Source: Bacteroidota bacterium
Lineage (GTDB): Bacteria; Bacteroidota; Bacteroidia; Chitinophagales; Chitinophagaceae
Direction: 5' to 3'
Length of the DNA: 64,000 nt
NCBI GenBank assembly: GCA_016868455.1
Contig: VGGV01000001.1
Coordinates: 124,001 to 188,000, forward strand
Shown here: one piece after another, positions 10,127 to 56,724 of the stretch
How the letters are laid out: the number at the start of each line of letters is the position of its first letter
Position numbering within the stretch: position 1 is the first letter of the stretch
Notes under the pieces: model-generated
The model's input: the letters and a program-made list of their open reading frames with translations, nothing else
Told to the model about the DNA's origin: nothing
The model's database searches: none
Position numbers and translations under genes: made by a program

Positions 10127-10264
10127 AGGCACCGGGTGGCTTATATGCACAAAATGCTGGAGCACGGCACAGGGGCAGACCGCCAGTTAGCCGTATTTGA
10201 AAAAACAAAAAAACTGGCTGAATTGGCCAGTTACATCAACAGCCAGTACCTGGTAGGGATATAG
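10127..10264 (+). pseudogene. C-terminal remnant of a carboxylate-amine ligase (GCS2/YbdK-like)
   Basis: Translation RHRVAYMHKMLEHGTGADRQLAVFEKTKKLAELASYINSQYLVGI resembles only the extreme C-terminus (GTGADRQLxVFExT) of that family; no upstream domain present. Confidence 0.5.
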
Positions 10265-10271
10265 TTTCCTT

Positions 10272-10930
10272 TTATTTTCTTCCAAAAAACTTTCCAATGG
10301 AAATCCCTGCAGCCCGGTGAACAATGCGGGGGGCCGTTATCCGTATTAACAATACTGCCGATACCATGTGTATAGTGAGCAAATATGACAAAACCTCCGG
10401 CAGTTTCATATCCGGCCTGCAGTAAAAGGTTGGCTCCAAAGCGGCCATAATCACCAAAACTGAATTTCATGTTCCGGTTTACCGAACCGCCGCCGCTTTT
10501 ATTGAATTTTTCTTTCCCGAACAGCTGCACATCAATGGAAGGACCGGCCTTGATAAAAAAATGACCGTCTTCTTCACTGAAATTATATTGCAGCATAGGG
10601 GCCAGTTCAAACGTATGCAGGGTTACATCATTATCCACCGCTTAAGAATCCGGAGGAAACGAAGGCCGGGTGAGTTTTACTTTGAAACCCTTCATGCTGT
10701 AAAAGACAGCAGGCGAAAAAAATAATTTTCCTTCAAACTGGATTCTTGCCATTGCGCCTGCCTGAAAGCCATACTTAATCTCTGTTTCCTGTTTTGTTTT
10801 TCCCAGGTTGATTTCGGGAGTGCTGTAAGCAGCATCGGTTATCTGCGGCCCGGCAAAAACGCCGAACTCAGCCTGGCTATAAACATGCATTGCTATAATG
10901 ATGTATAAAAAAGTAATCGTTTTTTTTCAT
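10272..10930 (-). pseudogene. Outer-membrane beta-barrel (PorT-like) protein with three lesions
   Basis: Frames 10642..10890 and 10231..10638 are collinear, separated by in-frame TAA (10642-10644). C-terminal strand APRIVHRAAGISIGKFFGRK* is in another frame after a G6 run (10328-10333). Signal peptide KTITFLYIIIAMHVYSQ joins its ATG (10928-10930) only if the 8-T run at 10920-10927 were 7. Confidence 0.7.
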
Positions 10931-11047
10931 ATTACTGTTATGGTATAAGCGATAAAAGTAGCTATTAAATCCCGTTAGTACAACCTTTGGGGGAATTAAG
11001 TGTGACAGGCAGTTATTGACTGAAATTCAGAAGCCGGTAAAGATTAT

Positions 11048-11596
11048 TTAATATTTTTTGGCAGGGTCTTTTATTTCAGAGGATGTATTATAGGCCTGTG
11101 ATTTTCCTTTGGGTATCGACAGGTTCTTCCAGGCTTTATTTTTGATGATCTTGGCGATATAAATCATCTGTCCCACATGATAGGGATAATGCGCCAGCTG
11201 ACGATTGATGGCATCCGCCACTGTTAACTCCTCCTGTCGTATAGTTACCTTTTTTTTCAGGTCCTTGTTCTTTAAAGATGATAAGGAAGACAGGAAACAA
11301 TCCCATCCTTTTTCCCAAAGTTCAAGTAATTCCTTCTTTGATTGCTGGCCTTTTTCAAACTCTGCATCCCGGTTACGCCATTCCTTTTCGCCGTCTTGTG
11401 TTAAAAAATCAGTCCAGCGGCTCAGCATATTGCCGGCCATATGCTGAATAATGATGGCAACACTGTTGGATTCCTCATTTGGCCGATAATGGAAGTCCCA
11501 GTCATTCAGCTGCTCAAATGTTTTATCGCCGAGGTCTTTATAATACTTCATCCGCCGGATGGCTGTTTGCAGGTATTCTTTTCCAAGTGAGCTCAT
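11048..11596 (-). CDS. DUF1572 / DinB-superfamily protein
   Basis: 182 aa; MSSLGKEYLQTAIRRMKYYKDLGDKTFEQL...QHMAGNMLSRWTDFL...HYPYHVGQMIYIAK pattern. Confidence 0.8.
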   Translation of the reverse strand: MSSLGKEYLQTAIRRMKYYKDLGDKTFEQLNDWDFHYRPNEESNSVAIIIQHMAGNMLSRWTDFLTQDGEKEWRNRDAEFEKGQQSKKELLELWEKGWDCFLSSLSSLKNKDLKKKVTIRQEELTVADAINRQLAHYPYHVGQMIYIAKIIKNKAWKNLSIPKGKSQAYNTSSEIKDPAKKY

Positions 11597-11636
11597 AGTG
11601 ATAAAAGCTGGTTTATTAGTTAAGGGTTAATATTTT

Positions 11637-13394: not shown

Positions 13395-13486
13395 TAAAAC
13401 TACTGAAATCAGGGCATTTGCCGGTGCCCAAAAAGGGCTGGTAATTATGCATTGCTTCCTTAACTTGCCAGACTAAAATCGTATCT

Positions 13487-16018: not shown

Positions 16019-16042
16019 GGTACCCGTACCGGAATGCAAACC

Positions 16043-16125: not shown

Positions 16126-18630
16126 ATGAGAAAACTGATTCTTCTTTTGTCTTGTACCTTGTGGCTTGTTGTCCTGAGCTTGCCAAAGGGAGTCTATTCA
16201 CAGGCACCCCAAAGCTGGACCTCCTCCGAAATGTACCAGGCTTTACGAAAGCTGAATGTGCTGGGATCTGTTTTATATATAGCAGCGCATCCTGATGATG
16301 AAAACACCCGGCTGATCTCTTACCTGTCCAAAGACCGGCTGTACAGAACAGGTTATCTTTCACTTACAAGAGGTGATGGGGGCCAGAACCTGATTGGCGA
16401 TGAACAGGGAATTGAACTGGGCCTTATCAGGACACAGGAACTGCTGGCTGCACGGCGTATTGACGGGGTTGAACAATTTTTTACAAGGGCTTACGACTTT
16501 GGTTATTCCAAAACACCGGAAGAGACTTTTACCAAGTGGGATAAAGAGAAAATATGGAGTGATGTGGTTTGGGTGATAAGAAAATATCAGCCGGATGTGA
16601 TCATTAACCGTTTCCCGGTAACAGGAGAAGGCGGTCATGGCCATCATACCGCATCGGGAATTTTGGCCAATGAGGCTTTTGAGGCGGCGGCTGATCCGAA
16701 TCGTTTTCCCGGGCAGTTGAAAGATGTTTCAGTCTGGCAGGCAAAAAGGGTCTTGTGGAATACTTTCAATTTTGGCGGTACGAATACTACAAGAGACGAC
16801 CAGTTTAAGATAGATGTTGGCGGATATAATCCTTTATTGGGAAAAAGCTATGGGGAAATATCTGCCGAAAGCCGCAGCCAGCACAAAAGCCAGGGTTTTG
16901 GTGTGCCTGCTACAAGGGGCGAGGCGCTTGAATATTTCAAGGCAACCAGGGGTGACCAGCCGGTTACTGATTTGATGGACGGAGTTGACCTGACATGGAA
17001 AAGGGTGCCCGGAGGTGAAGTGATTCAGAATATGGTGGACAGCCTAGCTGCCTCATTTGACTTTATTCACCCTGAGAAATCGGTAAAGGGTTTAGTGGGA
17101 TTATACCAGAAGCTGAATGTAATGCCTGAAGGTTACTGGAGAAACAAAAAACTGACTGAAACAAAACAATTGATAGAGCAATGCAGCGGTTTGTTTTTAG
17201 ATGCAACCACTTCGGAACAGTTTGCAGTGCAAACCGATTCTATCCGGTTCAATTTTGTATTCAATAACCGGCTTGGAGCTGATGCTGTTTTGCAAAAAGT
17301 GACCTTGGATAATTTCGACAGCAGCTTTTCCCGCCGGCTGGAGAAGAACAGGAATTTCAGCTTTTCAAAAACCCTGCTTGTTCCGGCTGATAAACCCATT
17401 ACCCAGCCTTACTGGCTGGAGAAGAAAATGGAAGAGGGATATTTTAATGTAACCAACCAGTTATTGATAGGCCAGCCTGACGTTCATTCAGCTTACAATG
17501 CCTTTATACAAATAGAGATTTTTGGTGTGGGCTTTAAATTTACAAGGCCTGTTAAATACAAGTTCACTGATCCGGTGAAAGGTGAATTATATCAGCCCTT
17601 GGTGGTTATTCCCCCGGTGCTGATTGAACCGGACAGCCCGGTAAAGATTTCAACAGTTAATAACAGTTTTGAAGGTGTTCTGAACCTGACAGGGAAGAAA
17701 AAAGGTTTTCAGACATTCTTGAATGACGTAGACCGGGAACAGCCCGACGATGTGAAAGTAAAATATAGTCCTGACAAACTGGTATTCATTGAAAAAAACA
17801 AATCAATACTTGTCAGCTACTCTATACAGGCTGGAAAAGATAATGAGTACCGTTTTGCTGTTGATGCGAATAACGGAAGAAAAGATGCTTATCATGTGGG
17901 TATGAAGGGAATAAAATATGACCACATACCTTATATCAGTTATTTCAATGTGGCTTCTGTAAAAAATCAAAAAATTGACCTTAGGATTTACGGAAAAAAA
18001 ATCGGTTACATCACCGGGGCAGGCGATAAAGTACCCGAAGCCCTGGAACAGATGGGTTACGAGGTAACGCTTCTTGGGAAAAAGGAGCTTTCAAAAAATA
18101 ACCTGAACCAGTTTGATGCCATCATCACCGGTGTGCGGGTCTATAACACCCACGACTGGATGAACAATTATTACGATAAACTAATGAAGTATGTACATGA
18201 AGGCGGCAACCTGATCGTTCAGTACAATACCAGCAGCAACCTGGGGCCCGTAAGAGCCAAGATCGGGCCTCACCCTTTTACTATTACAAGAACAAGAGTA
18301 ACGGATGAAAACGCCCCGGTGAAGTTGTTGAAACCAGATCATCCGGCTTTTAATTTTCCAAACAAAATCACAGATGATGATTTTAAAGGCTGGGTGCAGG
18401 AGCGGGGCATTTACCATGCAAGTGATACTACAGGCAAATTTGAAAAACTGATTGGCATGGCCGACCCCGGGGAAAAATCAGATGACGGAAGTTTGATAGT
18501 AACGAAATACGGGAAAGGCTGGTTCACTTACACAGGTATAGTATTCTTCCGTGAGTTACCTGCGGGGGTGCCGGGTGCCTACCGGCTGCTTGCCAACCTG
18601 ATTGCACTAAATAAAAAGAAAGGTTTTTGA
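16126..18630 (+). CDS. PIG-L family deacetylase with C-terminal GATase1/ThuA-like domain, secreted
   Basis: N-terminal YIAAHPDDENTRLISYLS and HGHHTASG (PIG-L motifs); C-terminal KIGYITGAGDKVPEALEQMGYEVTLL...; start MRKLILLLSC at 16126 gives a signal peptide. Confidence 0.85.
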   Translation: MRKLILLLSCTLWLVVLSLPKGVYSQAPQSWTSSEMYQALRKLNVLGSVLYIAAHPDDENTRLISYLSKDRLYRTGYLSLTRGDGGQNLIGDEQGIELGLIRTQELLAARRIDGVEQFFTRAYDFGYSKTPEETFTKWDKEKIWSDVVWVIRKYQPDVIINRFPVTGEGGHGHHTASGILANEAFEAAADPNRFPGQLKDVSVWQAKRVLWNTFNFGGTNTTRDDQFKIDVGGYNPLLGKSYGEISAESRSQHKSQGFGVPATRGEALEYFKATRGDQPVTDLMDGVDLTWKRVPGGEVIQNMVDSLAASFDFIHPEKSVKGLVGLYQKLNVMPEGYWRNKKLTETKQLIEQCSGLFLDATTSEQFAVQTDSIRFNFVFNNRLGADAVLQKVTLDNFDSSFSRRLEKNRNFSFSKTLLVPADKPITQPYWLEKKMEEGYFNVTNQLLIGQPDVHSAYNAFIQIEIFGVGFKFTRPVKYKFTDPVKGELYQPLVVIPPVLIEPDSPVKISTVNNSFEGVLNLTGKKKGFQTFLNDVDREQPDDVKVKYSPDKLVFIEKNKSILVSYSIQAGKDNEYRFAVDANNGRKDAYHVGMKGIKYDHIPYISYFNVASVKNQKIDLRIYGKKIGYITGAGDKVPEALEQMGYEVTLLGKKELSKNNLNQFDAIITGVRVYNTHDWMNNYYDKLMKYVHEGGNLIVQYNTSSNLGPVRAKIGPHPFTITRTRVTDENAPVKLLKPDHPAFNFPNKITDDDFKGWVQERGIYHASDTTGKFEKLIGMADPGEKSDDGSLIVTKYGKGWFTYTGIVFFRELPAGVPGAYRLLANLIALNKKKGF

Positions 18631-18809
18631 TGGCAGAGGCACAGAAAAAAGGTATTACCAAAAATGAAATGGCCTATATACTGGCCATCATTCTAGGTTT
18701 GATTATCGGCATACTGATAAAGCGGATACGGATCGGCATCATGATCGGCCTGGTACTTTGCCTGCTGATCGGGCTATCCGGTATTATGAGGTTTACCAGA
18801 AATAAATGA
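18630..18809 (+). CDS. Small integral membrane protein
   Basis: 59 aa MAEAQKKGITKNEMAYILAIILGLIIGILIKRIRIGIMIGLVLCLLIGLSGIMRFTRNK; two hydrophobic segments; TGATG-type overlap with PIG-L stop. Confidence 0.7.
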   Translation: MAEAQKKGITKNEMAYILAIILGLIIGILIKRIRIGIMIGLVLCLLIGLSGIMRFTRNK

Positions 18810-18931
18810 ACACACCGGACAACGATAGGGCCCCACTCTTCAAAAGCTGGACAGGCTGGTATGTGCTTGTGATCGCCTTTCTCGCTTTACTGATTATTTT
18901 GTTTTACTTCTTCACCAAACGGTTTGCATGA
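18806..18931 (+). CDS. 41-aa single-TM micro-protein (not in supplied ORF track)
   Basis: ATG at 18806 overlaps previous stop (ATGA); translation MNTPDNDRAPLFKSWTGWYVLVIAFLALLIILFYFFTKRFA; its TGA overlaps ATG of the symporter (ATGA). Confidence 0.7.
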   Translation: MNTPDNDRAPLFKSWTGWYVLVIAFLALLIILFYFFTKRFA

Positions 18932-21879: not shown

Positions 21880-22396
21880 ATGTCCAAAAAAATTCAACTC
21901 AGTATTCCCAAACCCTGTCATGAGGACTGGAATGCCATGACGCCAGTTGAAAAGGGAAAATTCTGCGGCTCCTGCCAGAAACAGGTTATTGACTTCAGCA
22001 CTATGAGTGACCGTCAGGTGGCAGAGTTTTTCAAAAAGCCCTCCACAGGTTCTGTATGCAAAAGGGTTATGACCGGCCAGCTTGATCGGGATATTGAAAT
22101 TCCCAAAAAAAGGATACCCTGGCTGAAGTATTTTTTCACCATTGCGCTGCCCGCATTCTTTGTTTCTGTTAAAGCCGGCGCTGACCATTCAATGGGAACA
22201 AACCGAAGAAGGCTACTATACCCTTCAGCTTATAAATTCTTCAGGTCAGGCAGTGTATCAAAAAGAAATATGGATTGATGCCGGGGCCAGGTTGCTGAAC
22301 CTTGAAATACCCCGGGTGGCTGCAGGGAACTATTTTCTCGTATTGGTCAATAAAGAAAGCGGCAGGAAGTATGCTGAGAAGATAATTATTCAGTAG
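21880..22396 (+). pseudogene. T9SS-type secreted protein with passenger deleted: N-terminus joined out of frame to C-terminal sorting domain
   Basis: N-part MSKKIQLSIPKPCHEDWNAMTPVEKGKFCGSCQKQVIDFSTMSDRQVAEFFKKPSTGSVCKR...KYFFTIALPAFFVSVKAGA; overlapping frame gives IQWEQTEEGYYTLQLINSSGQAVYQKEIWID...GNYFLVLVNKESGRKYAEKIIIQ* (type-A T9SS sorting domain-like). Confidence 0.65.
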
Positions 22397-22528: not shown

Positions 22529-23059
22529 ATGAAAAAGCTCTTCCACTTATGCCTGCTGGCTGTAATTTCAGCCGGTTTTATTTCCTGTACCAAATCAGCC
22601 GGCGACAGGGCTGCCCCTGTTTCTGAAAATGCAAAAATGTCCCGTTCAAGAGAATCCGCGAACCTCTATGAATTGTGAACAAAAGTATTTAATGAAATTA
22701 ATGAACCCAGGCCTACCGTATTGGGCAATCCTGACTCCTATCTTTTTGAAGGAGACCAGGCAGTATTCTATGTTATCGTTTCAGATGAGCCTCCTTCGGA
22801 TGCCTATACCGGTTCGCTGAACCTGGTGGATGAAGCTACCGGCAACACCATCCAGACCATTCACCTGCTCCCGATGTATGCTCCCGAAGCTGCCAATCTA
22901 AATGTTCCCAGAGATGTGGCTCCGCATCCTTTTATGTTTGCTGCCGTCGATATTGACAGCCAGTATACTGGCAGAACCGTTGCGCTGCAGTCTACGATTC
23001 AGCTGCCTACCGGTGAAGTATCAACAGCCACATTGCCATCCGCATTTATCGTTCAATAA
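22529..23059 (+). pseudogene. Lipoprotein gene with in-frame TGA
   Basis: MKKLFHLCLLAVISAGFISCTKS...ESANLYEL*TKVFNEINEPRPTVLGNPDSYLFEGDQAVFYVIV...; TGA at 22676-22678 with the same frame open on both sides. Confidence 0.6.
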
Positions 23060-24809: not shown

Positions 24810-25385
24810 ATGGCGATGAAAGAACCTGTAAACCTCCGTTCGTACAAAAAGAAAATGCTCAGAAACAGGAACCGCTTCCGGAAGTTCCTAACCCGTATTG
24901 AAAAAAAGCTCCTGCCGGGATTGCAGGCTCTTCTGCCGGCACTGGAAAAAAGAGTTTGGAATGAACCAGACTGTTTGCAATGCGGCAAATGCTGTAAAAC
25001 CATGAGTCCCACTTATACAGAAAAGAATATCAAAAGAATTTCGGCCCACCTGAAGATGAGCGAAGAGGCTTTTAAGCAAAAATGGCTGCGGCAGGAGCGG
25101 GGTGGCGACTGAGACTGGCTGAATAAGAAAGCACCCTGCCAGTTCCTGGATTTGCGTACCAATATGTGCACCATTTATGAAGTAAGGCCCACTGACTGTG
25201 CAGGATTTCCCCATCAGCAAAAGAAACTGAAAGGTTATATGCATGTTCATAAACAAAATGTGGAACTCTGTCCCGCCACCTATAAAATGGTAGAAAAAAT
25301 GAAGCAATGGGCCGGCGGTGAGCTGGTAATCTCCAAAGCGGAGCAGCAAAAGCACTTTCTTTACCGGGGCATAAGAAAGATATAA
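24810..25385 (+). pseudogene. YkgJ-family Fe-S/zinc-chelate protein with in-frame TGA
   Basis: CLQCGKCCKTMSPTYTEKNI...RQERGGD*DWLNKKAPCQFLDLRTNMCTIYEVRPTDCAGFPH; TGA 25110-25112, same frame continues to TAA at 25383. Confidence 0.7.
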
Positions 25386-25415: not shown

Positions 25416-25772
25416 TTACAGATAAACGTCTTCTATCAGAAAGAACTCCGCCTTTCCGCCGGGTTGCAGGGTGATGGAAAGAATGTCGTATTGTATCCAC
25501 GGGTGACCGGGATTCAGATGCAGGTATTCATTGGCTGCTTTTTGCAGGTATTTAAATTTCTTCCTGGTTACGCTGTCTTCAGGATGGCCCAGCGATGAGG
25601 CTTTTTTTGTTTTTACTTCCACAAAGTGCAGAAATTTTCCCCTCGCAGCTATGATATCTATTTCGTGGTGCAAATGACGCCAGTTGCGGTGCAGGATTTT
25701 ATAACCCCGTCCGGCAAGCCATTCGGCCGCCATGGCCTCGCCTGCTTTGCCCAGATCATTGTGGTCAGCCAT
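25416..25772 (-). CDS. YraN family protein (UPF0102)
   Basis: 118 aa; GKAGEAMAAEWLAGRGYKILHRNWRHLHHEIDIIA...LHFVEVKTKK. Confidence 0.9.
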   Translation of the reverse strand: MADHNDLGKAGEAMAAEWLAGRGYKILHRNWRHLHHEIDIIAARGKFLHFVEVKTKKASSLGHPEDSVTRKKFKYLQKAANEYLHLNPGHPWIQYDILSITLQPGGKAEFFLIEDVYL

Positions 25773-25808
25773 GCCTTATCTTTACTTCAATATTAAAAAA
25801 AATCGTTC

Positions 25809-26960
25809 ATGCCGGGGATATATCCGTTGAAAGGAGTGATAAAACATTACGACTGGGGCGGGAATTCCTTCATCCCTTCTATGCTGCAGCATGAGAACCC
25901 CGGGCAGCTGCCATTTGCTGAATACTGGATGGGCACCCATCCCGTAGGAATGGCACTGGTGAAAACGACTGAAGGCGAAAAGGAACTTATTTCGCTTACC
26001 GGTTTGCTTTCTTTTCTGTTCAAAGTGCTGGATGTAAAAGATATGCTGTCCATCCAGGTACATCCTTCAAAGCAGGCGGCCGAAAAAGCATTTGCCAGGG
26101 AAAATGCGGAAGGCATTCCGCTGCATTCGCCGCAACGGAATTACAGGGATGCCAATCATAAACCGGAACTGATGGTGGCCCTGGGCGATTTTTGGCTGCT
26201 GCATGGCTTCAAGCCGGCAGAAGAACTGGTTTATACGTTGCTGAATGTAACGGAGCTAAGGGAATTGCTGCCGGTATTCAATCAATCGGGTTATGCCGGT
26301 TTATATAAGCACATTATGGAAATGCCGCAGGCGGAAGTGAACCGGATCCTGCAGCCCTTGATCCATAATCTCTCATCCGTTTATCAAAACAGGGAACCCG
26401 ACCGGTACGATGAAGATTTCTGGGCGGCAAAAGCAGCTAACCTGTTTACTAAAAATGGCAATATTGACCGCGGCATATTTTCCATCTATTTGTTCAACCT
26501 GGTTCATTTAAAAGAAGGGGAGGGAATTTTTCAGGGTGCAGGGGTGCCTCATACATACCTGGAGGGCCGGAACGTTGAAATTATGGCCAGCTCGGATAAT
26601 GTCCTTCGGGGCGGCCTCACCACCAAGCATATTGATGTAAAAGAACTGATGAAACATGTAAAATGCGAAGCTGTTTATCCCGAAATTCTCACTGCGGAAA
26701 ACGGCACAGGTTCTCTGCTGAAATACAAAGTTCCCGTGAGCGACTTTGTGCTGGAAAAAACAGAACTGGCAGCCGGCGACACAATAAATCTGCAGGCAGA
26801 GTCGTCAGAAATTTTGCTGGTAACGGAAGGAGAGGTGCAGGCTGGCGGTATAACGCTTAAGCCCGGACAACCTTCGGCCATTGTGCTGGCAGGAACTGAT
26901 TATACTTTGAAAGGTGTGGCTGCCCGTACCGTAGTTTTCAGGGCGGGGCCGGGCTGTTAA
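25809..26960 (+). CDS. manA: Mannose-6-phosphate isomerase, class I
   Basis: 383 aa; YPLKGVIKHYDWGG, LSIQVHPSKQAAEK, HKPELMVAL, GAGVPHTYLEGRNVEIMASSDNVLRGGLT. Confidence 0.93.
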   Translation: MPGIYPLKGVIKHYDWGGNSFIPSMLQHENPGQLPFAEYWMGTHPVGMALVKTTEGEKELISLTGLLSFLFKVLDVKDMLSIQVHPSKQAAEKAFARENAEGIPLHSPQRNYRDANHKPELMVALGDFWLLHGFKPAEELVYTLLNVTELRELLPVFNQSGYAGLYKHIMEMPQAEVNRILQPLIHNLSSVYQNREPDRYDEDFWAAKAANLFTKNGNIDRGIFSIYLFNLVHLKEGEGIFQGAGVPHTYLEGRNVEIMASSDNVLRGGLTTKHIDVKELMKHVKCEAVYPEILTAENGTGSLLKYKVPVSDFVLEKTELAAGDTINLQAESSEILLVTEGEVQAGGITLKPGQPSAIVLAGTDYTLKGVAARTVVFRAGPGC

Positions 26961-30602: not shown

Positions 30603-31322
30603 TTATTTTGAACTCAGATCAGCCCGGAAAAACAGCATTTCATTCCATCGTTTTTCCACGCATTCGGCATAATCTTCCAGCCAGCGGCTCTAGGCATCTT
30701 CGCCATAAATGGCATTGTATCTTTCATTAAAGGGTTTTCTGTAAGAGGGATCCAGTTCTTTCAGCCCGGCTTTCAGACGGGGAACAGTGGTGATCTGCGG
30801 CTCACCGGAGTTGATTGAATTGTAAACAGCCACAGTTTCATTACCGGCTTCCCATACTTTTTTCATCTTTCTGATCAGCGTATTCAGCTGAGCGATCATT
30901 CCGGGTTTAGGGTAGGTATGGGCAATAATAATCTTATCTGTATAATCCGTAAGCTGTACGGTGCTCATCTCTGCATTAAACTGGCTGTAAGATGATGTGC
31001 CTTCTCCGGTGGTAAGCGGGGCTACATTTTTGCTCCAGTCTAACTGATGCTACACGCTTATTTGGCCGCGGCCATCCATGGCATCCCAGCTGGTTGGGCC
31101 TTCTGTAACATGATAGGCGCCGGATTCAGGACCTGACTGTACTTCAAATACCCGCCATTTAACATCCCCTGTATGGTATTTCTGGGCATGTGCGGCAAGG
31201 GCTTTTTCAAATCCAACAATTTTGTCGGCTTTGGGTGTAACCCGGAATGTGCTGATGACATTTTTGTTTTGGCCTGCTGCCAATAACGGAGCAAGCATGA
31301 TGAAAAGAAAAATCTTTCTCAT
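30603..31322 (-). pseudogene. Exported protein gene with two in-frame TAG codons
   Basis: MRKIFLFIMLAPLLAAGQNKN...GRGQISV*HQLDWSKNVAPLTTGEGTSSYSQFNAEMSTVQLTDYTDKIIIAHTYPKPG...NAIYGEDA*SRWLEDYAECVEKRWNEMLFFRADLSSK*; TAG at 31050-31052 and 30690-30692, one continuous frame. Confidence 0.7.
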
Positions 31323-35685: not shown

Positions 35686-35752
35686 GATGTTTTGGATTTA
35701 TTGGGCAATTATCGTAACCTTTCCCTTTTAAAACCTCTTAAACCAAAACAAC

Positions 35753-35965
35753 ATGAGAAAGACCTTTGGTAAGATCCTTGCTGGTGTAATAATGCTTTCT
35801 CTTGTAGCAGCTGCCTGCAACAACAAGAAGGATAAAAAATAAGAACCCGCCAAGGAAGATACCACCATCAAAACAGAACCCACGCCTGCTATTCCTGATA
35901 CCACCCAGATGGACAAGGATACAGGAGATGTGCGCCCGGTTGATCCGAATAAGCCTGGCGAGTAA
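35753..35965 (+). pseudogene. Small lipoprotein with in-frame TAA
   Basis: MRKTFGKILAGVIMLSLVAAACNNKKDKK*EPAKEDTTIKTEPTPAIPDTTQMDKDTGDVRPVDPNKPGE*; TAA 35840-35842, same frame continues for 40 codons. Confidence 0.55.
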
Positions 35966-36021: not shown

Positions 36022-36511
36022 TTATTCTCCGGAACTTTTTTCCAACTGTACTTTGGCCAGTTCCTTACGGTGTGTGCGGCTGTGGATGAGTTTGTGTATC
36101 ATCCAGTGCTCCAGCCGGTGATGGGCGGGAATAAGTATGGCAGCAAGACCCACAAAAATTAAAATCTCGTAAACCGGAGTATGATTGGTAAGCCGGGCCA
36201 CGGTCGGATGAAGAAGCAGGGTGAGGTACTCAAACAGGAAGAGCAGGGAAAGCACACCGAGCAACCGAATCAGTTTCAACGGCACGGCAATACGGCTCAG
36301 GAATAAAGTAAAGAGAAAAAAACCGGGGATAAAGATGGCAATGAGGAGCATCTGCAATTGCTGAAACCTCTTTTCCCGCTGGATAGCCCTTTCTTCCTCC
36401 AGTTCCAGTTGCTGGAAATTATTTGTGATTCTCTTATTTTATCCCTGCTGTTAACCGAATCGTTCAGCCCCCGCATATAATTCACATAAGAAAAAGCGCT
36501 GCAGTAAAAAT
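36022..36511 (-). pseudogene. C-terminal fragment of TPR-type signalling membrane protein, frameshifted
   Basis: HFYCSAFSYVNYMRGLNDSVNSRDKIRESQ joins NNFQQLELEEERAIQREKRFQQLQMLLIAIFIPGFFLFTLFL... only by adding one A to the AAA run at 36422-36424; no upstream TPR region. Confidence 0.55.
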
Positions 36512-37113
36512 GCTGAAGCTCCGTGACCTCGGATTCCGTGCATGTGAAGGTTATTACAGCCAGCACGAATGCCAGCACCTGGCCCTGCAGCATTACCGAA
36601 ATGCAGCCAAAGGATGGGATGACGGAAGTGCACCGCGACATGATCCTGTGGGCCGACATTGTACTGGTGAGCACCCCCATCCGGTGGGGCAATCCTTCTT
36701 CGCTGTATTTTAAAATGGCAGAGCGGCTAAACTGTGTGCAGAACCAGATTACTATCAGGGACCGGGTACTGATAAAAAACAAAGTGGCTTCTTTCATTAT
36801 CACCGGCGGACAGGATAACATTCAGCAGGTGGCAGGGCAAATGATGATGTTTTTTACCGATCTCGGATATACGTTTCCCCCTTTTAGTTTTTTGGGGTGG
36901 AGCCGGGGATGGACAGCCGAAGACATGGACAAAAACATCCTTCAGTTCAAAAAAAGCGAATACATCCGGCGAACCGTAAAAGAAATTGTAGATAACTGCT
37001 TGGAAACGCTGACCAACATCAAACATATTCATACAGAAAATATTAAAGCGCTCAAACCCCACCGCGAAGATTCATTTACCGCAGGCATGCTTAACCCGGA
37101 TATGAATGTATGA
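36495..37113 (+). pseudogene. NAD(P)H-dependent FMN reductase/flavodoxin-like gene, 5'-truncated and frameshifted
   Basis: KLRDLGFRACEGYYSQHEC joins STWPCSITEMQPKDGMTEVHRDMILWADIVLVSTPIRWGNPSSLYFKMAERL if one C is removed at 36572-36573; N-terminal FMN-binding segment absent. Confidence 0.65.
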
Positions 37114-40660: not shown

Positions 40661-40772
40661 TTGAAACGTAGAATTACTAACCCTGAAAAATTTTTTTCGG
40701 TTATGGTGCAGCGTTTTGAACAGTAATCTGCATCTTTGCAATGGTTTTTCATAGGATATTGGATTTTAAAAC

Positions 40773-40805
40773 GAGGCCGGGTTTCTACCCGGCCTCTATT
40801 TTTTT
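40773..40805 (+). terminator. Strong terminator-like hairpin
   Basis: GAGGCCGGGT-TTCT-ACCCGGCCTC then ATTTTTTT. Confidence 0.7.
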
Positions 40806-40813
40806 CCTTGTCC

Positions 40814-41794: not shown

Positions 41795-41886
41795 TACACA
41801 TTTCATTCACCATTAGGAACATTTCAACAAGTGTCAGGGATGATTAGGCGCTTCTTTACTAACTTCGGCCTCCAATTTCAACCCCC

Positions 41887-42941
41887 ATGACCGGACAATC
41901 GCACCAACTGGCTGCCATTCTTTTTGCCGACATTGTGGGCTATACAGCCCTGATGCAGGAAAATGAAGAACTGGCCGTAAAAAAGGTGAACCGCTTCCGG
42001 GAAACAGTGGAACTGGTAGCTGAAGAACTCAACGGAAAAATTGTTCAGTATTACGGCGATGGCTCTCTGCTGTTGTTTCAAAGCTCCACCGATGCAGCCG
42101 AATTTGCCAAACTGCTGCAGGAAGACCTGTACAATGAACCGCAGGTACCGGTACGAATCGGCATCCATATGGGCGATGTGCTGGTACTTGCCGGCAATAT
42201 ATTCGGCGATGTGGTCAACATTGCCTCCCGCATTCAAAGCCTGGCTCCGGCAGGCGGCATTTATATTTCCGAAGTGGTGTACCGGAATATTGCCAATAAA
42301 AAAGAACTGGAATCCGCATTTGTAAAAGAAGAAAAACTGAAGAATGTAAAAGACCCCATGCGCATTTACCAGGTGCTTACGGAACCTATGCCGGCCATTA
42401 TCCAGACTAACGGTGTTGCGGCAACCGCTGCAGCCTCTGTAAATGGCAACAGCATTGCCGTATTGCCCTTTGCCAATATGAGCAGCGACCCGCAGCAGGA
42501 TTATTTCAGCGATGGGCTTACCGAAGACATCATCACCCAGCTTTCCAAGATCAGGGCTTTTAAGGTGATTTCCCGTACCTCGGTAATGTAGTATAAAACT
42601 TTACCAAAATCAGTAAAAGACATCGGAAAAGAACTGGGTGTATCCCTTGTGCTGGAAGGCAGTGTGCAGCGGCATGGCGATAAGGTGCGCATCACTGCAC
42701 AGCTCATCAATGCAGTGTCGGATGAACATATCTGGGCCGACTCCTATGACCGCTCACTCAATGATATCTTCAGCATTCAGCCGGTGCAGGGGATAAGGCT
42801 ATTGAGAGTTTTAATAATGCAGTGGCCTTAAAGGAAGCGGCTATATCCTTATTGCTGATCCGTGATTTTGAATATCTCAATATCAAGTACCTCAATATGG
42901 CGCTCATCACCGGGAAGGTGAAGCAGCTGATTAATTTTTAG
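41887..42941 (+). pseudogene. Class III adenylate/guanylate cyclase, TAG-interrupted, with internal deletion
   Basis: [18 protein letters not shown]...GDGSLLLF...[56 protein letters not shown]...SLNDIFSIQ then frame loss; GDKAIESFNNAVALKEAAISLLLIRDFEYLNIKYLNMALITGKVKQLINF* in another frame. Confidence 0.75.
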
Positions 42942-42953: not shown

Positions 42954-43432
42954 TTACGCAGGCGCACTTTGGTACAGCAGCTTGCCTTCATCATCCAGCG
43001 AGTAAACCCCGTCTTTCAGTATGAGTGTAAGCGGGCCTGGCGCCCATTCTGTGGGTTCGCCGCTGCCTTCTTTCCTGCGGATGATCACCGCTTTTTTCTG
43101 TGTGGGTAAAAATATTTCCACCCTTACCCTGTCCTTGCTGAAAATAAGATAAGTGCTGTGGTTTTGTCAAGCGACGGGTCTTTGGGCAGCATTTTGATAC
43201 CTGCTTCAAAAATGCGGATGCAGGTATCCTTCATTACCGACCAGCGGTAGCCGGCTGAGGTAGTGCACCCTTTTTCATCCCTGTCGCTGCCCGCTTGGTT
43301 TACCGGTATGGTATCAGCCTGTGCGGTAACGGATGCATCTTCCTTTATTGCAGCCGGGTTGTTTTTTGCCTCGTTGTTACAGGCCATGCATGCTGTTAAT
43401 GCCAATGCAAAAGTGGTTGCTGTTCGGAACAT
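42954..43432 (-). pseudogene. Lipoprotein gene with -1 frameshift
   Basis: MFRTATTFALALTACMACNNEAKNN...DKTTALILFS then in next frame SKDRVRVEIFLPTQKKAVIIRRKEGSGEPTEWAPGPLTLILKDGVYSLDDEGKLLYQSAPA*; shift near 43148. Confidence 0.65.
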
Positions 43433-43534: not shown

Positions 43535-44124
43535 CTAATCCTTATAAAACACCGGCTTCTCTTTTTCAGGAATGGTCAGTTTAGTGCTGAGGGTTGGATA
43601 ATACTGTTTCATGGTATGGATACTCTTGCCCTGTGTATCAATAAATTTCCAGTTCATCCCATTGTCAAAGGAAACGCCTACCAGGGTGGAAATGCTGACC
43701 AGTTTGCCTCCCGGAACTTTTAAAACCAGTGTTTCAGGAACGGGGCATTGAAGTTCTTTGCCCGATACCACAATAGGGGAAGGCTCACCAATCTCAACAC
43801 TTATAAGGGTATATCCTTCACTTTCCTGCTCTTGTATTGATGATGAAATCAGTTTCACAATTTCCTTCCCATGCCTCCGTCCTTTATTGTTTTGGGGTGC
43901 ATATATTTTGTAAACTCCGGGTATTTTTTTTCAGCAAGGGCATTCGCCATATCGGTAGCCTGGCTTTTAATTCTCAGCGAAATGGAGTCGGTTGCAATTT
44001 TGGATTGTCCGTAAGCGATATGAACAATGCATAGAGTAATAAAAACTAACCTGCGGATGACTATTATATGATTTGATTTTTGTGAAGTTATTCCTTTTGG
44101 TGGTGAGAGTTTAATTTTAAGCAC
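43535..44124 (-). pseudogene. Exported protein gene with -1 frameshift at a G run
   Basis: ...KYPEFTKYMHPKTIKDGGMG joins GKEIVKLISSSIQEQESEGYTLISVEIGEPSPIVV... if the CCC at 43868-43870 (GGG on minus) were four bases. Confidence 0.6.
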
Positions 44125-44345: not shown

Positions 44346-47300
44346 GTGATAATTGTGAGATTAAAGAGCCTAGAAATCAAAGGATTCAAAAGTTTTGCTG
44401 ATAAAACCGTCGTAAGGTTTGATGATAATGTTACCGGCATCGTCGGCCCCAATGGCTGCGGTAAAAGCAATATTGTGGACAGCATCCGCTGGGTAATCGG
44501 TGAGCAAAAGATCAGCCACCTGCGCAGCGAGAACCTCGACAGCCTTGTTTTCAACGGCTCCAAAACCCGCAGCGCCTCCGGCCTCGCCGAAGTAAGCCTC
44601 ACTTTTGAAAACACCAAAAACCTGCTCCCCACTGAGTTTAATGAGGTCACCATCACCCGCAAATTTTACAAAAGCGGCGAAAGCGAATACCGGCTCAACG
44701 ATGTGCAGTGCCGGCTGAAAGATATCCAGAACCTCTTTATTGATACCGGCATCAGCACCGACAGTTATGCCATCATGGAGCTTGCCATGGTGGACGACCT
44801 CATTAAGGACAAGGACAACAGCCGCCGCCGCATGCTGGAGCAGGCTGCCGGTATTTCCATTTATAAAACAAGAAAGAAAGAAGCCAGGCTGAAACTGGAT
44901 GCCACCGAACAGGACCTGGCAAGAATCGAAGACCTGCTTTTTGAAATCAATAACCAGCTAAAGGCACTGGAGAGCCAGGCAAAGAAGGCGGAGAAATTCC
45001 ATGAAATAAAAAAAGAATACCGGGAGCTCAGCATTGAGCTGGCCAAGGCTTCGCTGGAAGGCTTTAACCTTACTTACCGGGAACTGAACCAGCAGCAGGA
45101 TACCGAAACAGCCAAACGGGTAAGACTGGAGGCGGAAATTGCCGGCGACGAAGCGGCGCTGGAGCAGGAAAAACTGGTGTTTGTTGAAAAGGAAAAACAG
45201 TTGCAGGCCATGCAGCATGCTTTTACTGAAATGCTGCAGGCCGTTCGCACTAAAGAAAATGACAAGAACCTTTCGGCCCAGCGGCTGGAGCATTTGAAAG
45301 AAAAAGAAAATAACCTGCAGGACTTTTTGCTAAAAGCAGAGGGTCAACTGAAGGGCATTGAAGAAAGCATACAGTTCACCGGAGCACAGGTAGCTGAAGA
45401 AATGCAAAAGCTGAAACAGCTGAACCATGAACTGGAAAACCATCGCCGCGAAGTGGATGCCAAACGAAATGTGCTGGATGATAAACGCCGCATTGTTGAC
45501 CAGTTGCGCAACGAACAGCAGCAGGTACAGCGCAGCCAGTTTGATGCAGAGAAGAAAGTGGCTGTGGCCGACACATCTGTTCAGAACCTGCAGAGGGTAA
45601 TAGCGCAGACAGAAGAGGAAAGAAAACAAAGGGAGTACCAGCGCCACCAGCTTGACCAGGAAAGGATACTGAAAGAAAAAGAACTCTCCATAAAAAAAGT
45701 GGACCTGGAGCAGTTGCAGCAGCACCAGGAAAATACCAAAGAACAAATTCTGCAGATACAATCCTTACTGGATGGCCTGCGCAATAATCTGGCGGAAGAA
45801 ACAAGGAAACTGGATGCCAAAAAGAACGAACATGACCTGCTGAAGAGCATGATTGATTCCATGGAAGGCTACCCCGACAGTGTGAAGTTCTTGCATAACA
45901 ACACCCGGTGGAACCATACCTCACCGATTCTTTCTGATGTGCTGTATGTAAAGGAAGAATACCGAACTGCGCTGGAAAATGTGCTGGAGCCCTATCTTGG
46001 ATATTATGTGGTGAACAACCTACAGGAAGGTTTGCAGGCCGTACACCTGCTGGATGAGCATAAAAAGGGGAAGGCGAATTTTTTCCTGCTGAACAAATTT
46101 GATGAGAACAGATCTGAAGTAACCGTCCACCGGTTAGAAGGCGGCATACCGGCGCTCAGTGTGGTGGAAGTGGAAGAAAGATACCGCAGGCTGGCCGAAC
46201 ACCTGCTCGGCAATGTATTTATTGCAGAAAGTGAGGAAGTACTGGAGAACAGTAATGGTTTTGTGGTAATTGAAAAGAACGGGAAGTATGTAAAAGGAAA
46301 ATACTCTCTCACCGGGGGCAGCGTGGGGCTGTTTGAAGGCAACAAGATTGGCCGGGCAAAAAACCTGGAGAAGCTGCAGGAAGAAATTACGGCCCAGTCG
46401 GCCGTGGTGGAACTGCTGCGCTCAGAGATACAGGCAAGGCACAATGAAGTGATTGCTTTTAATGAAGAACTGCGGGAAACAGCTGTCCGTGATACTGAAA
46501 AAGAGATACAGCAGCTCACCAACGAGGTATTTGCCCTGCACAATAAACTGGAAAACCTGCACTCTATGCAAACCGGCAGCCAGCACCGGCTTGAGGAACT
46601 GAGTTTGCAGATGCAGCAAACGCATCACTCCGTGGAAGGCGTAAGGAACCAGCTTGCCGGTTACAATGAACAGTTGCTGGTGGCCGCTGCCAAACTGGCC
46701 GAGGCGGAAGAAGCTTTCAGGATAACGGATACAGCTTACAACGAAGCCAGCCGCAAGTACAATGAGTTCAATCTGAATGTAACCAAACAGCAGAGCCGGA
46801 TTGCTGCCTTAAAACAGGAACTTGAATTCAAAGGCACACAGTTAAGCGACCTGAAGCAACAGATAGAAAACAATACTAACCAGCTGACAGAAACAGTTAC
46901 CAGCATTGGGCAGGCATCTCAGTCACTCAAAGAATCTGAAGAAGCGCTGCTGCAAATGATGAAAGATAAGGAGGAAGAGGAGAAAAAACTGAATGAAGCC
47001 GACCAGGCTTATTACAACTTCCGTAACCAACTGAGCGAAAAAGAAAGTGAGATACGCCATAAGGTGAAGGAAAAAGAGCGGGTGGAGCACATGCTTGCGG
47101 CCATCAAGGATAAACTGAATGAGCTGAAGCTGCACCTGGCGGGGATGAAGGAAAGAATGGATGTGGAATTCCGTATCAACCTCGATGATATACTGGGTGA
47201 ATCCAGGACAGGTGAAATACCGGTGGAAGAACTGCAGGATAAAGTTGAAAGGATGAAGAAGCGCCTTGAGAACCTTGGTGAAGTGAACCCCACTGCTATT

Positions 47301-47882
47301 GAGGCTTTTACGGAAATGAAAAAACGCTACGACTTCATCACAGAGCAAAAAACCGACCTGGTAAATGCAAAGGAAAGTTTACTGAAGACGATCGAAGAGG
47401 TAGAAGCCACCGCCAACCAGAAATTCCTGAAAACCTTCAATCTGGTAAGGCAGAATTTTCAGAAAGTATTCCAAACACTTTTTACCGATGATGACCAGTG
47501 TGACCTAGTACTGGAAAACCCGGAGAACATTGCTGAAACAGGTATTGATGTAATTGCCAAACCCAAGGGGAAACGTCCCACCTCACTTACCCAGCTCAGC
47601 GGCGGCGAAAGAACGCTTACGGCAACGGCATTGCTTTTTGCCATTTACCTGATCAAACCGGCGCCTTTCTGTATACTCGATGAGGTGGATGCCCCGCTGG
47701 ATGATGCCAATGTGGGCAAGTTCACCAATATGATACGGCAGTTCAGTGAGAACTCTCAGTTCATCATCGTTACCCACAATAAAATGACGATGAACACCGT
47801 GGATGTGATCTATGGAGTAACGATGCAGGAACCTGGCGTAAGCAAACTGGTGCCGGTGGATTTCAGGAGTCTGGAGAATTAG
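44346..47882 (+). CDS. smc: Chromosome segregation protein SMC
   Basis: 1178 aa; Walker A GPNGCGKSNIVDSIRWVIGEQ; hinge; LSGGERTLTATALLFAIYLIKPAPFCILDEVDAPLDDANV. Confidence 0.96.
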   Translation: MIIVRLKSLEIKGFKSFADKTVVRFDDNVTGIVGPNGCGKSNIVDSIRWVIGEQKISHLRSENLDSLVFNGSKTRSASGLAEVSLTFENTKNLLPTEFNEVTITRKFYKSGESEYRLNDVQCRLKDIQNLFIDTGISTDSYAIMELAMVDDLIKDKDNSRRRMLEQAAGISIYKTRKKEARLKLDATEQDLARIEDLLFEINNQLKALESQAKKAEKFHEIKKEYRELSIELAKASLEGFNLTYRELNQQQDTETAKRVRLEAEIAGDEAALEQEKLVFVEKEKQLQAMQHAFTEMLQAVRTKENDKNLSAQRLEHLKEKENNLQDFLLKAEGQLKGIEESIQFTGAQVAEEMQKLKQLNHELENHRREVDAKRNVLDDKRRIVDQLRNEQQQVQRSQFDAEKKVAVADTSVQNLQRVIAQTEEERKQREYQRHQLDQERILKEKELSIKKVDLEQLQQHQENTKEQILQIQSLLDGLRNNLAEETRKLDAKKNEHDLLKSMIDSMEGYPDSVKFLHNNTRWNHTSPILSDVLYVKEEYRTALENVLEPYLGYYVVNNLQEGLQAVHLLDEHKKGKANFFLLNKFDENRSEVTVHRLEGGIPALSVVEVEERYRRLAEHLLGNVFIAESEEVLENSNGFVVIEKNGKYVKGKYSLTGGSVGLFEGNKIGRAKNLEKLQEEITAQSAVVELLRSEIQARHNEVIAFNEELRETAVRDTEKEIQQLTNEVFALHNKLENLHSMQTGSQHRLEELSLQMQQTHHSVEGVRNQLAGYNEQLLVAAAKLAEAEEAFRITDTAYNEASRKYNEFNLNVTKQQSRIAALKQELEFKGTQLSDLKQQIENNTNQLTETVTSIGQASQSLKESEEALLQMMKDKEEEEKKLNEADQAYYNFRNQLSEKESEIRHKVKEKERVEHMLAAIKDKLNELKLHLAGMKERMDVEFRINLDDILGESRTGEIPVEELQDKVERMKKRLENLGEVNPTAIEAFTEMKKRYDFITEQKTDLVNAKESLLKTIEEVEATANQKFLKTFNLVRQNFQKVFQTLFTDDDQCDLVLENPENIAETGIDVIAKPKGKRPTSLTQLSGGERTLTATALLFAIYLIKPAPFCILDEVDAPLDDANVGKFTNMIRQFSENSQFIIVTHNKMTMNTVDVIYGVTMQEPGVSKLVPVDFRSLEN

Positions 47883-50024: not shown

Positions 50025-50957
50025 TTAGTTTGCCTGATATTTCACCATTGTTCTTTTGGAACTGCCATCATCAAAAAACTCCATAATGGCATAGGCCGGG
50101 TCAAACTCCTGGAAAGTACCTTTCCACCAGTTGCCGGAAACAGCGCCATTACAATAATAACGGATACCGAGGTATTCTATCTCTTCCTGCAGGTGAATGT
50201 GGCCGCTGATACAGGCTTTGATGCTGGGGTATTGTCTGAAAAGTTTTTTCAGCGCCAGGAAATCGGTATGCATCAGGTTCCGCTTTACCAGCAGGTCGCC
50301 ATTGGCTTCTGTTTTATTAAAGAACAGACCCGCACAAATGGAGAGTATGGGGATATGCGATATGATGCAGATAAACCGGCGGGCCGGTACGGATTTCAGT
50401 TCCTCCTGCAGCCAGTTCAGCTGTTCTTCATCCAGCCGGGCAATATACCCGCCTGCGGGGTTCAGTTGTGTACTGTCAAGTACAATAAAATGCCAGTTCT
50501 CCCTGCTAAAACTGTAATACCGGTTTTTCATTTCCAGTGTTTCCACTGCCCATACCTTGCCATACAGCGGGTCACCGGCGGGTTTTTCTCCTTTGATGAA
50601 CCATCCCCAGACATCGTGGTTGCCGATGGTGTGATACACCGGCAGGCTGTTTTCTTTTCGCAGCAGATTTTTAAAAAGGTCCCACTGAACCTGTGTTTGC
50701 TGCCTGTCGGCTTCAAGGGAATCCATGATGGCGTCTCCGCCGTTCACAATAAAATCAACCGGGTTCTTCAGTTGCTGTACGTGGTGCAGGGCTTTGGTCA
50801 TACCTGCCTCAGGTACCTGCCCGGGTTTTACATGTATATCGGTAAGATGCGCAAGGCGGATGGGTTTTTTCTTTTTGCCCGTAGCCAAAACAGAGGCGGG
50901 CAGCAGGCTGCTGCCCGCCAGTGCAGCCGAAGTTTGCAGGAAAGTTTTTCTGTTCAT
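50025..50957 (-). CDS. Calcineurin-like metallophosphoesterase, Tat-type leader
   Basis: MNRKTFLQTSAALAGSSLLPASVLA; RLAHLTDIHVKPGQ, VNGGDAIMD, HTIGNHDVWG, CIISHIPI, CISGHIHLQ. Confidence 0.9.
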   Translation of the reverse strand: MNRKTFLQTSAALAGSSLLPASVLATGKKKKPIRLAHLTDIHVKPGQVPEAGMTKALHHVQQLKNPVDFIVNGGDAIMDSLEADRQQTQVQWDLFKNLLRKENSLPVYHTIGNHDVWGWFIKGEKPAGDPLYGKVWAVETLEMKNRYYSFSRENWHFIVLDSTQLNPAGGYIARLDEEQLNWLQEELKSVPARRFICIISHIPILSICAGLFFNKTEANGDLLVKRNLMHTDFLALKKLFRQYPSIKACISGHIHLQEEIEYLGIRYYCNGAVSGNWWKGTFQEFDPAYAIMEFFDDGSSKRTMVKYQAN

Positions 50958-51217
50958 AAGCAGATTTTACCAATGATTAAGGCTGTGATATAGAGAAAGT
51001 CCGGTACTATTATTGCGCTGAATCTTGCCGGCTGATACTAAAAAAGCCTGCCCGGCGTTTTTCAGCAGTCCCCTCATTTCAAAAATAGCATTGTTTTCCA
51101 TGAAGCTGAATAAGTTGAGTTGCCAATTTGTATCCACTCCGGAAGCGCAGGTAAATAAAATAATCTTATTTTTAGGGATTGAAATATTAAATATCTGACC
51201 TTAGGTAAACATCAACC

Positions 51218-52861: not shown

Positions 52862-52883
52862 ATAACAGGATTAAAATATTATT

Positions 52884-52914
52884 AAGGCTGCCACCCGGCA
52901 GCCTTTGTTGTTTT
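52884..52914. terminator. Terminator between convergent genes
   Basis: AAGGCTGCC-ACCC-GGCAGCCTT then TGTTGTTTTT. Confidence 0.75.
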
Positions 52915-52916
52915 TA

Positions 52917-54398: not shown

Positions 54399-54578
54399 AA
54401 TAAAAAGTTGATGCTCTAAGTTAGCTGAATTCGGACAGGGGTAACTGAAGTTTTTTACAAACGGGGGAAGGTAACCCGGGGCCGGAAGTCAGAGGTCGGA
54501 AGTTAGCGTTATATGTAGCTTTCCAAAATACGCAAGGAGGACTAACGACAAATTGCTACAGACTATTGACTCAGCAGC

Positions 54579-54848
54579 TCAATCATCATCGTCATCTTCA
54601 TAATAAGCTCCCTGGCTGCTTTTGTACTGTTCTTCCCATTCCTTTACTTTTTCATCGTTCAGGCATTCGATTATGTCGTGCAGGGGGTCTTTTTTCAGCT
54701 TCCATTCAGTGGCAGTAGGATCATCAAAACGCTGTATAAAAAGACAATGGTCTGATTCCACTGACACTTTGATCAGTGTAACTGGTGAGTCTTCTTTCTC
54801 TCTTACCAGGTAATAACAGCCTGTTTCAAGCAAGTCATACGAGTACAT
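54579..54848 (-). CDS. Conserved-looking small hypothetical protein with acidic tail
   Basis: 89 aa ending YYEDDDDD; upstream AAGGAGGGGATT RBS-like sequence. Confidence 0.55.
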   Translation of the reverse strand: MYSYDLLETGCYYLVREKEDSPVTLIKVSVESDHCLFIQRFDDPTATEWKLKKDPLHDIIECLNDEKVKEWEEQYKSSQGAYYEDDDDD

Positions 54849-55107
54849 AATCCCCTCCTTTTTAAATAAATTTTTGTCAGCAGTAATGGGTTGATAAGCA
54901 GAATCAGATGGTTAATAAGCAGTGGGGAACTTGAACGGGTCAGGAGTACAGTTCAAAATTAGGGGAATGGATATAATGCCGGATGTGAAATTTTAGTTAT
55001 CGAGTTTTCGTTATATCAGCGCATTGATTTTTAGGCAGTTATAGCTGAAAACTAAAATACCTTTTGGAACCCGTAAAGGCAGCGAAAGGTATTTTGCGGG
55101 AGAAAAT

Positions 55108-55281
55108 TCAGAGGCTGAACATGCACTTACGGCTGCACTCTTTCTTCTTTTCGGTTTTCTTTTCCGTTGTGCTGTTCGCTTTCTTTTTGCCTGTTTGACT
55201 GGTAGACAGGTTGCTAAAGCTGGCAAAGGCTACCGCCCCGATGCCTGCCATCAGTAAAATCACTACCAGTGCTTTTTTCAT
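55108..55281 (-). CDS. 57-aa exported Lys/Cys-rich micro-protein (not in supplied ORF track)
   Basis: MKKALVVILLMAGIGAVAFASFSNLSTSQTGKKKANSTTEKKTEKKKECSRKCMFSL*; signal-peptide-like N-terminus. Confidence 0.5.
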   Translation of the reverse strand: MKKALVVILLMAGIGAVAFASFSNLSTSQTGKKKANSTTEKKTEKKKECSRKCMFSL

Positions 55282-55409
55282 AGCTGAATATTTAGACTGA
55301 AAAGTTACGGAGATTACCGGGTAACAAGCAAAATGTTTTGATGAATGGCAGCAAGAGGCCGTAAGTCTGAAGTCTGAAGTCAGAGCCTTGCACCAGATTC
55401 ATCTTACTA

Positions 55410-56724
55410 TTACAACTTGGTTACTTTCATCTCCACCCTGCGGTTCTTCGCCCGGTTAGCTTCGGTATCGTTGGGTGCAACCGGCATATCCGGACCATAG
55501 CCTTTGATGGTAATGCGGCCGTCATCAATCCCTTTTGAAACCAGGTAATCTTTGCAACTGCGAACTCTTTTCAGCGATAAATCCTGGTTTAATGCAGCGC
55601 CCCCCTCAGAAGATGTGTGGCCCGACAGCAGGATTTCCATCGAAGCATTTTGCTTCATCAGTGCAGCCAGTTTGTCCAGTTCAGCTTTGCCTGCTGCCAG
55701 CAGCACGGCGCTGTTCACTTCAAACTGAATGGTGTTCAGCACCAGGTTATCGCCTTCCTGCAGTGTTTTATTGTTGAATGAAACTTTACCTGAGCGTTTT
55801 AGTTCCAGTTCAACCGGTTCATGCGTTATGCCTTCAATCACATCTGTTTGTTTTTCATCTGATGAGTAACCCTCAGCGCTTCCTTTCACTATATACAGCC
55901 CGGCGGGAATATCATCAATCATAAAATTGCCTTCTACATCGGCAACAGCGCTGCCGTATTCACCAACGCTGGCCATAGCGCCGGGGATGGGCTCCCGGGT
56001 GGCGGCATCAATGATACGGCCCTGTACTTTTCCCCTGTAAATATATTTGGGGTTAATCAGCAGTTTTACAAAATCAACCGCATAACCATCGCCCTGTTTC
56101 GAAACCGGGTCGTCAATAGCAATGATCAGCGAATCACCGGATACTTTTTGTAACGGTTCCGGTGTAAGTTTAATGGTGATGAGTTTTCCGATTGGCCCTG
56201 TCTGGTTAATCCGGTTGATCATTTTTTCCGCTTCAGTAAATCGCAGGCCGTTCAATTTTACCTGGAATTTTGAATGAAAGGCCGGCGCCTGAAAATCATC
56301 ATTGAAAAACTGAAGGGCGGCAGAATCAACCTTTACATTTTTTAAAGCAGCAAGGGGAATTGAAATGCTTTGGGGATTATTGGCGGGGCGTTTTGTTGTT
56401 TCGGTGTAGCCGTCAGTACCGGCCATTGACCCGTATTTAAAACCTGAAGGAACCATGATACGGTCCTGTCTTTTGCATCATTTATGTTCACTGCCCATGG
56501 AAAGGCATGGGAGGGGGTGGACCAACCGGAAAAAGGGTTGTATTCAGGGTCAAATCCGAAGCCGAGGTTATCAATATCCCCAACACGGATCATCAGGTCA
56601 GCCTCCACGGTATTTCTGAGAACAAGGTATTGTGTGCCCCAGTCGCCATCTGTATCGGTGCTTCGCTGGGAGAAACCGGTAGTTGCAGGAATAAGAAGAA
56701 ACAGAAAAGAATAATTCTTTTCAT
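55410..56724 (-). pseudogene. OmpA-family protein with N-terminal region broken by two homopolymer frameshifts
   Basis: C-terminal OmpA domain NTIQFEVNSAVLLAAGKAELDKLAALMKQNASMEILLSGHTSSEGG...RAKNRRVEMKV. N-terminus MKRIILF|LFLLIPATTGFSQRSTDTDGDWGTQYLVLRNTVEADLMIRVGDIDNLGFGFDPEYNPFSGWSTPSHAFPWAVNINDAK|RQDRIMVPSGFKYGSMAG restored by adding one base at 56705-56708 and one at 56471-56474. Confidence 0.7.

Follow-up and report, generated by a model that had tools for sequence, protein, structure and literature searches.

Evidence for recent, lineage-specific gene decay in the genome of an uncultured member of the Chitinophagaceae

Results

Twelve genes in the window, by which we mean the whole 64,000-nucleotide stretch of DNA analysed here (G000:C1:124001-188000), were found to be broken or reduced to remnants. 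They are very probably genuine, lineage-specific pseudogenes and deletion remnants of a lineage that separated recently from relatives with genomes of 3.4-5.5 Mb and is now losing genes. The genome that holds the window, G000, measures 2.64 Mb in 64 contigs (100% complete, 0.16% contaminated) and belongs to an uncultured genus of the Chitinophagaceae. The lesions comprised nonsense mutations, deletions that ranged in size from several hundred bp to about 0.9 kb, and frameshifts, of which several lay in homopolymers; they hit surface, signalling, transport and other accessory functions, the remaining genes being open and constrained. The process is a known one, genome reduction by gene decay, of which G000 is a new example, caught partway.

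Broken genes of the window

The lesions were checked by tblastn of the ORFs of seven genomes of the same genus against the window, together with targeted searches, and pseudogenes were called by orthologue comparison. The first pseudogene caller gave false positives on antisense ORFs, and a filter was added that kept only calls in which third codon positions held most of the mismatches. The initial annotation had named internal stops, frame changes and deletions in about a dozen genes. Nearly all of these were confirmed, the genes being open in up to seven of seven relatives and broken in the window (Table 1); the changes at 36572 and 56705 were inseparable from their neighbours, and the lesions at 35840 and 43868 were found only at lower match thresholds. 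No confirmed lesion was common to any of the relatives compared. Six of the twelve genes carried several lesions or were shorter by hundreds of bases or by the bulk of their sequence, and two (22529-23053 and 42969-43432) were supported by one relative only. Three further candidate lesions were rejected: an antisense overlap at 18602-18897, a start-site extension in one relative at 25419-25868 (YraN) and an upstream extension in one relative at 59399-60362.

Table 1. Decayed and intact genes of the window, and decayed genes of the 400-kb sample taken outside it
Feature	Position	Strand	Lesion or basis
GCS2 (glutamate-cysteine ligase family 2) remnant, last 53-64 aa of 369 aa	10070..10261	+	tblastn
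OMP_b-brl_2 outer-membrane barrel pseudogene	10330..10930	-	TAA 10642-10644; frame changes in T run 10920-10927 and G run 10328-10333
Secreted protein pseudogene, CarbopepD_reg + Por_Secre_tail domains	21880..22393	+	deletion (roughly 190-290 aa) and frameshift near 22175-22181
Lipoprotein-like pseudogene	22529..23053	+	TGA at 22676
YkgJ-type CxxCxxCC metal-cluster protein pseudogene (PF03692)	24810..25301	+	TGA at 25110
239-aa accessory protein pseudogene	30606..31322	-	two TAG stops, 31050 and 30690
Small lipoprotein pseudogene	35744..35962	+	TAA at 35840
TPR/transmembrane protein remnant, C-terminal 150-170 aa of 475-541 aa	36010..36500	-	frameshift near 36417-36424
Adenylate/guanylate cyclase-TPR pseudogene (PF00211)	41884..42938	+	TAG 42589; ~890-bp deletion (about 280 aa) near 42770-42790
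157-aa protein pseudogene	42969..43432	-	frameshift near 43137-43148 plus stops
Secreted protein, probable pseudogene, genus family of 185-222 aa	43550..44061	-	frameshift near 43868
OmpA-family protein pseudogene, 438-452 aa (PF00691)	55413..56722	-	frameshift near 56468-56474
TamB, intact contrast (PF04357)	387..5207	+	full-length match to relatives, no lesion
1178-aa gene, intact contrast (Smc in the initial annotation)	44346..47882	+	coverage 1.00 to 1180-aa relative, no lesion
632-aa gene, intact contrast (ParE in the initial annotation)	57676..59574	+	coverage 1.00 to G022, no lesion
MFS transporter	400-kb sample		two internal deletions
NlpC/P60 protein	400-kb sample		region with catalytic cysteine lost
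USP and NtrC-type regulator, divergent pair	L132 1185-1860		one deletion removed both 5' halves and the intervening region
K+ channel	400-kb sample		only last 123 aa remain
OppA-type substrate-binding protein, 547 aa	400-kb sample		stop codon
DUF5916 protein, 821 aa	400-kb sample		truncated, with stop
Lipoprotein	400-kb sample		internal deletion

The case for decay was strongest for the YkgJ-type, OMP_b-brl_2, OmpA-family, cyclase-TPR and 239-aa genes. The YkgJ-type gene was open in all seven relatives. The orthologues of the OMP_b-brl_2 gene were open in five of five relatives (224-249 aa), and in a comparison of 42 genomes of the genus the window's copy was the sole one with an internal stop among the matches listed for this domain (PF13568). 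Queries from four relatives matched the OmpA-family gene over its full length as two HSPs, in frames -1 and -3. The cyclase-TPR gene encodes 679 aa in G019, and the copies of G019 and G009 were open across the lesions. Four full-length orthologues of the 239-aa gene, in G009, G052, G051 and G044, were open, and the G000 copy held its two TAG codons.

Among the deletion remnants, that of the GCS2 gene had been absent from the initial annotation's list; it showed 64-81% identity to the C-terminus of the G001, G009 and G022 genes, and the intact G001 copy is assigned to PF04107. The secreted protein gene at 21880 gave two HSPs in frames 1 and 2, between which 190-344 aa of the relatives' 357-528-aa proteins were missing, and the deletion junction was visible at the DNA level. 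The TPR/transmembrane remnant was 67-72% identical, in two frames, to genes of G022, G001 and G019, and its N-terminal ~300 aa were not found. The lipoprotein-like gene at 22529 matched an open 192-aa gene of G022 over its full length with 32% identity and one stop, and the small lipoprotein gene matched open genes of 72-77 aa in G022 and G019 with 37-44% identity. The N- and C-terminal halves of the probable pseudogene at 43550 matched the genus loci L269 and L271 in different frames, with a weak identity of 25-34%. The 157-aa gene was open in G022 (157 aa). Its counterpart in G001 (G001:C15, L104 659-823) was a partial match only, so that members of the genus may be able to do without this gene.

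A separate observation concerns an element of ~65 nt on the plus strand at 40743-40810, which is conserved in the genus and includes the invariant stretch GGTTTTTCATAGGATATTGGA. This stretch is followed by a G+C hairpin with compensatory changes (three pairs) and then by a T run, and conserved promoter-like boxes lie upstream. A second copy was present in G022 (C5:313699), and most genomes searched had matches on other contigs. In Rfam the element matched FopS, a family of paralogous Bacteroidetes sRNAs, over its full length and below threshold (22.8 bits, cut-off 56), and other weak Rfam matches were similar. Judged by these sequence features, it is a candidate small RNA.

Size of the decayed genes

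The ~48 kb of intact coding sequence in the window contained zero lesions. The initial annotation had described a decay of mainly small genes, and this description did not hold, as several of the decayed genes originally encoded 370-680 aa and look small because deletions shortened them. The original lengths of decayed and intact genes had medians of 235 vs 315 aa, a difference that was not significant (Mann-Whitney p = 0.31). The TamB, 1178-aa and 632-aa genes of the window were free of lesions; elsewhere in the genome, the genes of the 547-aa and 821-aa proteins were broken.

Decay across the genome and in relatives

The genome outside the window was sampled as 20 stretches of 20 kb (400 kb). 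This sample held ~169 genes with a usable relative, of which 12 were flagged and ~8 were clearly broken on reading of the alignments, so that eight broken genes and some weaker calls add to those of the window. The window-wide decay noted initially is real but not special to the window; it is genome-wide, and the window looks richer in it than the 400-kb sample. The remaining C-terminus of the NtrC-type regulator at L132 was still 90% identical to a relative, and the deletion that it shares with the USP gene therefore looks recent. In an independent scan for MFS_1, stop-bearing matches occurred at two sites of G000 (C8 and C4); G051 had two, G044 one, and G022, G001 and G009 zero. By ORF coverage (ORFs of at least 150 aa), a coarse measure, the window reached 0.77 and the sample 0.79, vs 0.83 for G022.

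In a single-reference test, the broken genes of the window numbered 6 of 33 with queries from G022 and 6 of 29 with queries from G001; queries from G009 gave 7 of 37, one of the seven being a false call on an antisense ORF. The same test on the G022 loci gave 0 of 48 and 0 of 44. The loci of G001 and G009 yielded no convincing call, the few flags being start-site differences, antisense ORFs and weak partial matches. Antisense and start-site false calls aside, the closest relatives had 0-1 broken genes of 41-56 in the regions that correspond to the window. Run on such regions in seven relatives, the same caller made 0-2 supported calls per genome. The excess of broken genes over relatives was strongest in the window, which may be a rich spot, picked since its lesions caught the reader's eye.

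Substitutions at codon positions

dN/dS was approximated by counting substitutions at codon positions, with a closest relative that differed from gene to gene, and this test is independent of the lesions themselves. For the broken genes, the changes seen on the G000 branch alone were spread over positions 1/2/3 as 91/84/132, and those on the branch of the closest relative as 71/49/136. The third-position fraction f3 was 0.43 for G000 and 0.53 for the sister branch (Fisher p = 0.018), a shift toward positions 1 and 2. The intact genes showed no such shift (f3 0.481 vs 0.472 between the branches, p = 0.61). This pooled result supports the relaxed selection that had been proposed for the disrupted genes. 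Taken singly, the signal was clear in two genes only and weak in most others: the YkgJ-type gene (24810-25301) had changes of 12/13/4 on the G000 branch vs 2/4/8 on the sister branch, and the 239-aa gene (30606-31322) had 14/14/14 vs 1/2/10. As most of the signal comes from this pair of genes, they look older, and the other lesions look recent. A size-matched comparison of broken and intact genes inside G000 alone was not significant (p = 0.40).

Placement of the genome

The genomes of the genus (G000-G057) range from 1.5 to 5.5 Mb. In a single-gene tree, the sister of G000 was G022, with 3.6 Mb (support 0.82), and G000 was nested among members of 3.4-5.5 Mb; it is smaller than its closest relatives. 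The members of 1.5-2.1 Mb formed a clade separate from that of G000 in this tree. The nesting of G000 among the larger genomes points to a recent, independent reduction. At the DNA level, the best-conserved gene was 81% identical between G000 and its sister. In the tree of a carboxyltransferase (one gene), the MAG UBA4857 fell inside the genus and Lacibacter cauensis outside it; membership in Lacibacter, the best named match, was rejected on this placement. Genomes of 2.6 Mb (G000, G005, G018 and G020) sit on several branches of the genus tree, which suggests that genome reduction happened repeatedly in the genus.

Discussion

The lesions could in principle have come from sequencing or assembly, with unpolished homopolymer indels and chimeric metagenome joins making intact genes look broken. 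Several lesions do lie in homopolymer runs (10328-10333, 10920-10927 and 56471-56474), and the source is an assembly of 64 contigs. The initial annotation had argued that random error should hit long ORFs in proportion to their length, and the lesion-free intact sequence bears this out: with ~18 lesions placed uniformly on ~55 kb of coding sequence, the probability that all genes of at least 500 aa are missed is ~3e-7, an estimate that takes an approximate number of lesions and treats those within one dead gene as independent, which they are not. Against error stand also the deletions of hundreds of bp, the presence of several lesions in one gene and an excess of substitutions at positions 1 and 2 in the same genes, which error would not yield; MutS, MutL and the marker set were all open. 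We therefore regard error as a very improbable source of the pattern as a whole, and single lesions may reflect strain heterogeneity or a few base errors. The earlier reading of the lesions as real loss of function agrees with the open orthologues, the deletions and the codon shift, but the decay hits genes of all sizes. The reading frames are well conserved on either side of most lesions, as would be expected if programmed frameshifting, readthrough or a reassigned stop kept the genes functional. Against such recoding, the lesions include each of the three stop codons, a point already held against a codon reassignment in the initial annotation, and shift the frame in either direction; no relative shared a confirmed lesion, and the large deletions and missing N-termini lie beyond what recoding can repair; we give it practically no weight.

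A mutator phenotype after loss of mismatch repair, in place of relaxed selection, would account for the frequency of homopolymer frameshifts among the lesions and for the branch of G000 being longer than that of its sister (0.19 vs 0.11, one gene tree). The reading frames of MutS1 (900 aa) and MutL (617 aa) were open, however, and the intact genes showed no excess of private substitutions over relatives, in gene sets some of which include paralogues. A MutS-family protein of ~700 aa (MutS2-like), common in relatives, was not found in G000, G022 or G009; its absence from the undecayed sister G022 speaks against it as the cause, and a mutator origin is hardly likely. An IS burst was not indicated: only two partial matches to DDE_Tnp_1, the one family searched, were found, in short-read assemblies of a kind that lose IS copies. 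Alternatively, the decay may be real but caused by selective streamlining of a free-living oligotroph and not by drift after niche or host restriction. The many genomes of only 1.5-2.1 Mb in the genus and the losses in signalling, transport and surface functions would fit, but the small genomes form a separate clade, and few pseudogenes are described for streamlined free-living oligotrophs (PMC6794327), in contrast to the many of G000. The hallmark of streamlining, few pseudogenes together with high coding density, was not seen in G000, and we consider this cause rather unlikely.

Lineage-specific gene decay thus remains the preferred reading. Purifying selection on these genes would have been relaxed after a change of lifestyle, to a stable niche or to association with a host, or after a fall in population size; a deletion bias would now be clearing pieces of the dead genes. 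It is possible, if doubtful, that G000 represents a free-living lineage in a pseudogene-rich mid-stage of reduction, with no restriction to a host, no mutator status and no burst of IS elements behind it. Genomes pass quickly through the intermediate stages of reduction, and to our knowledge a pseudogene-rich middle stage has seldom been seen in free-living bacteria. If G000 were such a case, its genus would allow separate comparisons with the members of 1.5-2.1 Mb and of 3.4-5.5 Mb. As G000 has a close intact sister and dozens of relatives that span 1.5 to 5.5 Mb, a single genus would make it possible to measure in what order genes are lost, which deletions occur and when drift gives way to streamlining. 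Short annotated ORFs in G000 may be fragments of dead genes.

Comparison with known systems

Recently host- or niche-restricted bacteria such as early-stage symbionts resemble G000 in their many young pseudogenes and intragenic deletions, in losses of surface, transport and regulatory genes and in a genome smaller than those of close relatives (PMC11188291; PMC8032781; PMC4007534). G000 differs in having no known host and in showing no sign of IS proliferation, which is frequent, though not universal, in this type of reduction, subject to the assembly caveat given above. The freshwater streamlining of the Methylophilaceae (PMC6794327) is similar in its reduction within a clade and its loss of sensing and transport, but differs in that streamlined oligotrophs are described as carrying few pseudogenes, and G000 has many. 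Reduced genomes of Bacteroidota have been reported from groundwater, as have raised pseudogene shares in environmental lineages after habitat change (PMC11188291). The groundwater Parcubacteria of the same study, with 9.4% pseudogenes vs 4.9% in a seepage-water relative by Pseudofinder calls, differ from G000 in phylum, in genome size and in method, G000 having been assessed by orthologue comparison; like G000, they are known from environmental assembly and combine a raised pseudogene share with an inferred change of habitat (PMC11188291).
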